Of a stretch of DNA of 50,782 nucleotides, positions 9,084 through 10,977 are shown in pieces (within the stretch, counting starts at the first letter, position 1; each line of letters opens with the position of its first letter). The notes beneath the pieces were generated by a model, which was not told the origin of the DNA, made no database searches, and worked only from the letters and a program-made list of their open reading frames with translations. Origin of the DNA: Acidobacteriota bacterium (GTDB lineage: Bacteria > Acidobacteriota > Terriglobia > Acidiferrales > UBA7541). The translations under genes were made by a program, and so were the position numbers. The stretch lies in NCBI GenBank assembly GCA_003224525.1, contig QHZB01000185.1, forward strand, positions 1 through 50,782. Reading direction: 5' to 3'.

Positions 9084-9380
9084 ATGAGCGCAGGCCGCCA
9101 GCCGCAAAAATCCAGCCGGAGCTGGATTTTTCTTATGGCGCGCTGGGCGGCGGCGCTGCTGATTCTTGGAATTCTTTTTTATCTGCTACCGGTGGCCCCG
9201 CTCCGGAACGCCTTGTCGCGCGTTCCTCTGACACGTTTTCTTGCCGTGCTGCTGATCTATCTGGTGGCGCTGACCGGCGGCATCGCCAAGTGGCATACGG
9301 TGGTGAATTCCGCGGGCGCGCAGACTCTGCGCCCGACGATCATGAATCTATCCGGGAGATGGCGCGCCAGGCGCTCATAA
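9084..9380 (+). pseudogene. 5' fragment of an LPG-synthase-like (UPF0104) membrane protein
   Basis: The N-terminus has two hydrophobic segments (WAAALLILGILFYLLP and LAVLLIYLVALTG) with KWHTVVNSAGAQ after them. This matches the first quarter of the lysylphosphatidylglycerol synthase transmembrane family, whose members normally have 300 or more residues and six or more helices. Similarity ends near 9320, where sequence from a response-regulator gene begins in another frame. The gene is therefore truncated by a rearrangement. Confidence 0.55.
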
Positions 9381-9686
9381 CCTCGGTTACCGTGTACTCT
9401 CTGCCTGCGATGGCGAGGAGGCCTTGCGACTCTGCGAAAAAGAAAGTCCCGCACTGGCGATTCTGGACCTCAGCATGCCCAAACTAGGCGGTCCGGCCGT
9501 GGCCTCGAGGCTCACGATTTTGTTCCCTGGTCTGTCCATTCTCTTTACCAACGGTTATTCACAGGATTCGGAGAGCGTTTCGCCCGCCACGCCTGGCGCC
9601 TGCAAAAACCATCCAGCCGCACGACACTCGGCCGCGTGGTGCGAGAAATTCTTGACCAAGTGAAAAAGCGAAAGGCATCGGGCTGA
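9321..9686 (+). pseudogene. Frameshifted response-regulator receiver fragment
   Basis: Three reading frames must be joined. The first gives DDHESIREMARQAL. The second gives HNLGYRVLSACDGEEALRL, then LAILDLSMPKLGG and LFTNGYSQDSE. The third gives LQKPSSRTTLGRVVREILDQ and ends at TGA 9684. Together these form a CheY-like receiver (DD pair, phospho-Asp in LDLSMP, Lys in QKP) of the kind found at the C-terminus of hybrid kinases. At least two frameshifts lie at about 9382 and 9600, so it cannot make a working receiver. Confidence 0.7.
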
Positions 9687-9791
9687 ACCAAGGGCTCAAA
9701 ACGGCATTGAGTAAACAACGTCCTCATTTGCGATCCCGCGTGAAGCAGAGCAAGGTCGCGCTTTTCCCATCGATCTGTCCCTTTTTTACCG

Positions 9792-9820
9792 TTGACAGGT
9801 GCGTCCCGCGGTGCTAAAAA
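9792..9820 (+). promoter_or_regulatory. Candidate sigma70 promoter for the small RNA region
   Basis: A perfect -35 TTGACA at 9792-9797, a 17-base spacer and TAAAAA at 9815-9820 as a -10 (four of six consensus). Transcription would start near 9827. No convincing protein-coding gene follows before the terminator at 9962-9999. Confidence 0.45.
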
Positions 9821-9826
9821 CCGCAG

Positions 9827-9999
9827 AAAGACAAGCTCTTTGGTGGTGAGTCTCCTTACGAATTGCCGAGCGCAGTGCGCGAGCGAGGCCGCAGTCCTGC
9901 CTGGCAGGGCAGGCCTGCTGAGCCGCCGAGGGTCTTGTCATGCAACACCCCACCCACCCCGGGAGGTGAGAACGAACCTGTTTTCACCTCCTTTTTATT
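9827..9999 (+). ncRNA. Candidate structured small RNA, about 170 nt
   Basis: The gap 9687-10179 has no believable gene. The part between the promoter at 9792 and the terminator at 9962-9999 can fold. A closing helix pairs GACAAG (9830-9835) with CTTGTC (9934-9939), and after a small internal loop CTTTGG (9838-9843) pairs with CCGAGG (9926-9931). Inside, CCTGCC (9896-9901) pairs with GGCAGG (9908-9913). A long rod with internal bulges and a terminator recalls 6S-like RNAs, but no conserved motif of a named RNA family is recognised. The rest of the gap, 10000-10128, shows nothing notable. Confidence 0.35.
9962..9999 (+). terminator. Rho-independent terminator
   Basis: An eight-base-pair stem GGAGGTGA (9962-9969) / TCACCTCC (9984-9991) with a 14-base loop, followed directly by TTTTTATTT. 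The orientation is plus strand. It closes the candidate RNA and lies 180 bases before the ABC ATPase gene. Confidence 0.75.
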
Positions 10000-10128
10000 T
10001 GCCCGGACCTTGACGACGAGTTCTGGTTCCAAAATGGAACTGAGTGGGCTTTCGACGGTTCATGGCATCGCAGCGGCCCACTTCTTGGATTCCTTGCTTC
10101 CTTTAACTCCAATATTTTCAATCGGTTC

Positions 10129-10156
10129 TTGCAGGTAATCCCTTCTGAGCTAAAAT
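10129..10156 (+). promoter_or_regulatory. Candidate promoter of the ABC ATPase gene
   Basis: TTGCAG at 10129-10134 and TAAAAT at 10151-10156 with a 16-base spacer resemble sigma70 elements. The start codon of the ABC gene is at 10180, so the leader would be short, about 18 bases. Confidence 0.45.
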
Positions 10157-10179
10157 GGGCTGAGTAACTTCCATCAAAA

Positions 10180-10977
10180 ATGACCGCCTCGGCGCTTCCA
10201 CTCCTCTCCCTGGAACACGTGACCGTCCTGCGCGGCACGCGGGAGCAGCGGCCCGCCCTCGACGACGTCACATTGCAAATCGGGGCCGGCGAACACCTTT
10301 GTATTCTTGGGCCCAACGGATGCGGCAAGTCCACGCTGATCAAGACCATTACCCGGGAGTGCTATCCACTCGCCCGCGAAGGATCTTCCATCTCTATCCT
10401 GGGGCGCGAGAGATGGGATATTTTCGAACTGCGCTCGTTGCTCGGAATTGTATCGCCGGACCTGCTGGCTTCGTGCACCACGGGCGCCACCGGACGGGAT
10501 GTGGTGCTATCTGGGTTCTTCAGCAGCACATGCATCTTTCCACATCAACAACCCGATCCCGGGCATCTTGCTCGCGCCAACGAAACGCTCTCGCGGCTTG
10601 GCATCTCGTATCTGGCCAATCGTCCAGTTGTAGAGATGTCTTCCGGCGAGGCTAAGCGGACGCTGATTGCGCGGGCGCTGGTGCACGAGCCAAGAACTTT
10701 GTTATTTGATGAGCCGAGCAACGCACTGGACATCGGCGCGCAGATGCAGCTCCGTGACGCCATGCGGAAGCTGGCGCGATCCGGCGTCAGCATCTTGCTA
10801 GTCACGCATCATGTTTCAGAAATCATTCCAGAGATCGAGCGCGTGATCCTCTTGCGCGAAGGGCGCGTTCTCGCGGACGGGCCAAAGTGCTTCGTTCTCA
10901 CTGAGGAACATCTTTCGAATTTGTTCGGCGTGGCCGTTCGGCTCGGCCAACAAGACGGCTTCTTCCATCTATATTGA
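10180..10977 (+). CDS. ABC transporter ATP-binding protein (ModF-like)
   Basis: A single nucleotide-binding domain of 265 residues: Walker A LGPNGCGKST near 44-53, the signature MSSGEAKR in place of LSGGQ, Walker B LLFDEPSNALD, and a switch histidine in LLVTHHVSEI. The FELRSLLGIVSPDL segment and PEIERVILLREGRV resemble the ModF/iron-type soluble ATPases rather than typical importers. No permease or binding protein is adjacent, so its transporter partner, if any, is elsewhere. It has its own candidate promoter and stands alone. Confidence 0.85.
   Translation: MTASALPLLSLEHVTVLRGTREQRPALDDVTLQIGAGEHLCILGPNGCGKSTLIKTITRECYPLAREGSSISILGRERWDIFELRSLLGIVSPDLLASCTTGATGRDVVLSGFFSSTCIFPHQQPDPGHLARANETLSRLGISYLANRPVVEMSSGEAKRTLIARALVHEPRTLLFDEPSNALDIGAQMQLRDAMRKLARSGVSILLVTHHVSEIIPEIERVILLREGRVLADGPKCFVLTEEHLSNLFGVAVRLGQQDGFFHLY

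Follow-up and report, generated by a model that had tools for sequence, protein, structure and literature searches.

A predicted small RNA gene with a conserved C-rich linker, confined to one family of Acidobacteria

Related small RNAs and the candidate locus

6S RNA forms a long rod whose large central bubble imitates an open promoter, and the 6C/B11 RNAs consist of two hairpins whose loops carry six or more C. Pairing through C-rich segments has been described in two groups of bacterial small RNAs (sRNAs). As presented in PMC10470900, mycobacterial B11/6C uses its C-rich loops to pair with G tracts of mRNAs, and its hosts are described there as having no known Hfq or ProQ; for RoxS, the account in PMC5419742 has C-rich regions initiating pairing with G-rich mRNA segments, with Hfq generally not required. 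Among Acidobacteria, Acido-1 (RF01686) and Acido-Lenti-1 (RF01687) have been put forward as structured noncoding RNA candidates (PMC2864571).

The locus analyzed here lies in a 50,782-nucleotide stretch of acidobacterial DNA (the window). Positions 9792-9998 of the window hold a TTGACA/extended -10 promoter, followed by about 170 nt and an intrinsic terminator (Table 1), and the comparative evidence given below indicates that this segment is almost certainly a true stand-alone small RNA gene. The predicted sRNA forms a new family, though of a known kind, and its occurrence is restricted to a single family of Acidobacteria. No title or abstract describing this RNA was found in the open-licence PubMed Central literature on sRNAs and Hfq in Acidobacteria.

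Table 1. Positions of the predicted elements of the sRNA gene in the window.
Element	Position	Strand	Evidence or remark
-35 box TTGACA	9792..9797	+	identical in 29/29 home-genus loci compared
Extended -10 TGCTAAAAA (TGnTA)	9812..9820	+	TG at 9812-9813, TAAAAA at 9815-9820
Predicted sRNA transcript, ~170 nt	9827..9998	+	no conserved ORF; covariance model finds 34/36 genus genomes
P1 5' arm (GACAAG.CUCUUUGGUGGU)	9830..9847	+	pairs with 9922-9939
P1 3' arm	9922..9939	+	fold and model-fitted alignment; 11/17 P1 pairs changed on both sides (model-fitted alignment)
P2 hairpin (GUCUC...GAGGC, variable top)	9850..9889	+	8/15 pairs changed on both sides
P3 hairpin GCAG-CCUGCCUGGCAGGGCAGG-CUGC	9891..9918	+	8/11 pairs changed on both sides
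C-rich linker GCAACACCCCACCCACCCC, proposed seed	9942..9960	+	unpaired probability, conservation
Intrinsic terminator GGGAGGUGAGAACG-AACC-UGUUUUCACCUCCU and U tract	9961..9998	+	scan, alignment; stem-loop 9961-9992, T tract directly after

No Rfam family matched the segment at its gathering score, and none was credible at E values up to 5 over 551 bases. The covariance scan proposed in the initial annotation, with the 6S, SRP and other Rfam models, was likewise blank, as it was for tmRNA, and a tRNA/tmRNA search of the window found none. The sole Rfam match with E < 5 was osmY on the minus strand, which scored 13.4 bits (gathering score 46.9) and was dismissed as chance.

Each of the described systems shares something with the new RNA and departs from it elsewhere. 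The 6C/B11 RNAs of mycobacteria and other actinobacteria also have C-rich segments, but theirs are C runs in two hairpin loops, whereas the C-rich stretch of the new RNA is an unpaired linker before the terminator, in which the longest C run is four; moreover, the body of the new RNA is a three-way junction and there is no Rfam match between the two. RoxS/RsaE of Firmicutes is C-rich as well, but RoxS has four such regions and the new RNA one, with no sequence or Rfam match. Acido-1 and Acido-Lenti-1 are, like the new RNA, structured RNAs of Acidobacteria, but their models gave no match to it, whether the threshold was the gathering score or an E value of up to 5.

The segment had initially been likened to 6S RNA, a resemblance that did not survive comparison. 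In the reading that it is a divergent 6S RNA, or a second 6S copy, which binds RNA polymerase, its length, strong promoter and closing stem would be accounted for, and the two RNAs are indeed alike in size and closing stem. However, the new RNA is a three-way junction with neither the long rod nor the central bubble of 6S RNA, its most invariant part is a single-stranded C-rich linker, and its body is replaced between genera. The Rfam 6S model (RF00013) gave no match in the segment, even at E up to 5 over the 551 bases, and a separate 6S match was found in 40 of the 61 genomes searched, including the source genome (G000), where it lies on another contig. A 6S identity was therefore rejected, and a 6S function is considered very improbable. 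The 6S candidate of the source genome (G000:C161:28077-28303) scores 32.2 bits, below the Rfam gathering score, as do most 6S candidates of the genus; these are divergent and would be missed by Rfam-based annotation.

Conservation and borders of the gene

A terminator scan found one terminator against 2.5 in shuffled sequences, which is not significant for the scan alone, and a stricter sigma-70 scan listed no site at the candidate promoter because its -10 box has no final T. The 208 bases fold at -92.1 kcal/mol (z -3.63), which is only moderately better than shuffles, 1 of 200 being as good. As scans and folding energy are insufficient alone, the gene is called real on account of its comparative conservation. 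The scan results would be compatible with promoter-like and terminator-like sites that bracket a noncoding spacer by chance; this explanation is refuted by the conservation, that is, by all of the comparative evidence, and its probability is practically negligible.

Pairwise identity among 29 loci of the home genus is 37% just upstream of the -35 box, 100% in the box itself, 49% in the spacer, 82% in the extended -10 and 57-85% in the RNA (85% in P3, 85% in the linker and 80% in the terminator), and it falls to 26% just after the terminator. An identity profile with such sharp borders is that of one predicted transcription unit, and the borders are established by this computation. We infer that the unit is expressed, with transcription starting near 9827.

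The segment is single-copy in the source genome (6.5 Mb). A DNA search of 61 genomes recovered the sRNA in 32, all within the home genus (32/36 genomes, against 0/25 others), and a covariance model of the full RNA built from 29 loci (R1) raised this to 34 of the 36, with all 24 of the good-quality genomes included; R1 also recovered a locus (G021) at which the contig ends inside the terminator. Among 399 genomes of the class, R1 matched 68, every one in the home family. A second model, R2, which comprises the 3' module alone, had matches with E below 1e-10 in 66 of the family's 89 genomes. No match below 1e-4 was obtained in 6 other genomes of the order, and of the 17 matches at E <= 0.001 in 396 genomes of the phylum, only that in the source genome exceeded 33 bits. 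Two of the other 16 were inspected (L111 and L200) and are terminators after coding regions; G009 (two), G019 and G137 have additional R2 matches, which are terminators without the sRNA promoter. Within the family, genera g23, g24, g27 and g32 lack the sRNA.

Across 84,980 species genomes, the exact linker pattern occurred in 32 records, 31 of which are titled Acidobacteria, Terriglobia or Candidatus Acidiferrales (the taxonomy used places Candidatus Acidiferrum within the order Candidatus Acidiferrales). The remaining record, JAIMBE010000003.1 (L129), is a metagenome-assembled genome titled Bacillota (HOT.MB2.40); it is apparently G277 of the acidobacterial family, and the title looks wrong. 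The linker pattern was not found in viral contigs and there was no match in plasmids; a mobile element or repeat is ruled out by the single genomic copy and the lack of a plasmid match.

Conservation extends to the promoter. After removal of L106-L108, which duplicate genomes already included, 67 loci were compared. The pattern TTGAC(A/T) plus extended -10, drawn up after the home-genus alignment and the cross-genus loci had been inspected, lies upstream of the RNA in 65 of the 67 loci, across eight genera, and in all 33 loci outside the home genus; the background is 16 of 3365 random 320-nt windows. The two exceptions (L072 and L105) have TTGACA and a -10 that is one base off. Loci of other genera carry a different and often shorter RNA body, with predicted transcript lengths of 106-208 nt across loci, while the promoter, linker and terminator base are kept. 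In two genomes of genus g31 (L193 and L194), a gene is followed directly by CCACCCAAGACCACCCCGGGAAGC and a terminator, and the TTGACA pattern is missing; this is a possible distant variant of the sRNA 3' module.

No small protein was indicated: no ORF is common to the loci, which contain in-frame stops and frame-shifting length changes, so that the absence of a conserved ORF, established by computation, agrees with the original remark that protein-coding signal is lacking. The sequence thus holds an own promoter, an intrinsic terminator and no ORF, as is expected of a trans-acting sRNA. The TTGACA promoter with 17-base spacing, the strong terminator and the roughly 170 bases between them had been noted at the outset, and are present as described; the accompanying proposal, that the segment is a new small RNA bearing a promoter and a terminator of its own, is borne out by the genus-wide and cross-genus recurrence, the absent ORF, and the compensatory changes and independence from neighboring genes described below.

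Structure and the C-rich linker

The home-genus fold is a three-way junction (P1, P2 and P3) followed by the linker and then the terminator. The stem GACAAG/CTTGTC, described at first as closing a rod, is present, but it encloses the junction and no plain rod. One locus whose contig ends in the terminator (L022) was left out of the alignment, the identity table and the folding statistics. In a plain MAFFT alignment, which is not fitted to structure, 87.7% of cells are paired, against 46-51% when the structure is slid along the alignment. The compensatory changes that the initial annotation had suggested looking for in related genomes are present in that alignment: 14 pairs carry double changes, against 8.2 in shuffles (0/500 as high). 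A model-fitted alignment of 34 loci, which leans toward the structure, gives 31 such pairs against 14.1. The fold, like the gene itself and its conservation, is established by these computations.

The linker (CACCCCACCCACCCC) and the terminator base are nearly invariant across genera, contrary to the early impression that an obvious conserved motif was missing. CCACCCCGGGAG, which spans the linker and the terminator base, is found in 65 of 66 loci, with a slight bias since the module was placed by a CCGGGAG scan. Over 64 transcripts, the mean unpaired probability is 0.79 for the last 14 nt of the linker and 0.35 for the body; the linker is more open than the body in 59 of the 64, and its mean openness is at least 0.7 in 38. 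Genera g2 and g30 have a closed linker, and in g28 the linker is half closed. A conserved, accessible C-rich segment is thus present by calculation, more weakly in these three genera. The minimum-energy fold in several genera pairs a 5' GUGG with the linker, so the C-rich strand may be partly closed there.

This alternative pairing was considered further. RNAalifold, run on the plain alignment, returns another helix between GGUGG (5') and CCACC (linker) that is kept in nearly all 29 loci; because these columns hardly vary, the alignment neither proves nor excludes it, and energy tests give it no preference. GUGG is enriched in the 5' part of the transcripts (52/64, against 397/1828 random windows), but only 3 of 64 transcripts have a GUGG-linker duplex whose energy ranks within the best 5 of 100 shuffles. 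The idea that the 5' GUGG pairs specially with the linker was rejected, as duplex energy lends the enrichment no support.

Neighboring genes and proposed mode of action

In the window, an ABC ATPase gene (10180-10977) lies downstream of the sRNA. It is the next gene and co-directional in 26 of 30 home-genus loci (28/34 with four further loci of the genus), a synteny that leaves room for a cis role in that genus, in which the segment would be a leader or attenuator of the ABC gene: the structured RNA would sense a signal, and the terminator would be overcome when the transporter is needed. The 5' GGUGG able to pair with the linker CCACC could provide an alternative helix for such a switch, and a promoter search of the gap between the RNA and the ABC gene found none that beats shuffles (0/20), so read-through could matter. 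However, the gap after the terminator is as unconserved as the identity profile indicates, and 9 of 20 genus loci (gap 9999-10179 in the window) share a -10-like TAAGAT at 16-17 spacing ahead of the ABC gene, perhaps that gene's own promoter.

The ABC gene is, moreover, downstream in the home genus only. The next conserved gene is convergent in 26 of the 67 loci (not the scripted 27, L028 being excluded as the ABC gene is present there), and all but 3 of these are in other genera, where the arrangement is seen in 23 of 33 loci; promoter and linker are equally conserved at the convergent loci. With that gene pointing toward the terminator, those 26 loci offer no cis target, and a leader function is not general, as the next gene is mostly convergent in other genera. 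A co-directional downstream gene at every occurrence, as for a cis-regulatory leader or riboswitch, was accordingly not found. Independence of the neighbors is established on this computed basis; the case foreseen as fatal to the sRNA proposal, a segment that is only the leader of the ABC gene, did not materialize, and a leader function is improbable.

Upstream, the commonest neighbor (29/67 loci) is a hybrid PAS-histidine kinase-receiver gene. In the window, this kinase gene, found ahead of the RNA at other loci, is reduced to a frame-shifted remnant of its receiver domain at about 9343-9684, and 9084-9380 resembles the N-terminal part only of a 336-aa LPG_synthase_TM protein of relatives, a broken gene; together the broken genes span 9084-9690.

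The overall reading preferred here, and considered moderately probable, is that of a stand-alone sRNA gene of a family not in Rfam, which encodes a C-rich antisense regulator acting without canonical Hfq. A strong extended -10 promoter of the sigma-70 type would make a transcript of about 170 nt that folds as a three-way junction, leaves the C-rich single strand exposed and ends at the intrinsic terminator. The C-rich strand would pair with G-rich mRNA segments, probably near ribosome binding sites, and block translation without canonical Hfq, while the RNA body would protect the 5' end and present the C-rich strand. Pairing with G-rich mRNA is suggested by the conserved, accessible C-rich strand, as in B11/6C and RoxS.

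A canonical Hfq (PF17209, full-length, at least 80 bits) was found in 1 of 89 genomes of the sRNA-bearing family, against 14 of 16 genomes of other families. This absence fits an sRNA that acts independently of a chaperone. Common descent by itself would, however, produce such a correlation too, and some Hfq-less genera of this family lack the sRNA as well. The lone canonical Hfq of the family (G034:C118) may be real or contamination. A search of the 36 genus genomes for long sites complementary to the linker showed no excess: there were 51 non-self matches, while the backwards control yielded 62. As no target was found and the Hfq correlation is explicable by ancestry, C-rich antisense pairing is held to be only about an even prospect.

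The main rival to the antisense mechanism is protein binding, in which the linker and the GGGAG terminator base would be a site for a protein (for example a PF21979 Hfq-related protein, Rho, or a KH or CsrA-type protein) that the RNA titrates or tethers. The terminator base speaks for it: GGAGG is unvarying, and none of the 34 aligned loci shows a compensatory change there, which pairing by itself would permit, so the base seems constrained in sequence and not by pairing alone. The seed model does not need the invariant GGGAG base, a point against the antisense reading, and linker and base are conserved jointly while the bodies change. The source genome does encode an Hfq-related protein of 111 aa (PF21979, 33.7 bits; G000:C133, L190 983-1318, minus strand), but such a protein is also present in genomes without the RNA. 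Most genomes of the order have weak Hfq-like matches of the PF21979 kind, including genomes with a true Hfq. Protein binding is considered rather unlikely.

For the antisense regulator, a tentative history may be proposed. The sRNA family may have arisen in an acidobacterial family that lost canonical Hfq, as a chaperone-independent global regulator that works through an invariant 3' cassette (the C-rich strand and the terminator base), onto which each genus would have grafted a different structured body.

Few sRNAs of Acidobacteria are listed, although the phylum is among the commonest soil bacteria; Table 1 of PMC9029176 has four. Because it is family-wide and single-copy and has a strong conserved promoter, the predicted sRNA is a good first handle on RNA regulation in Acidobacteria, and because canonical Hfq is nearly absent from the family, it would make chaperone-free sRNA action testable outside the Firmicutes and actinobacteria.
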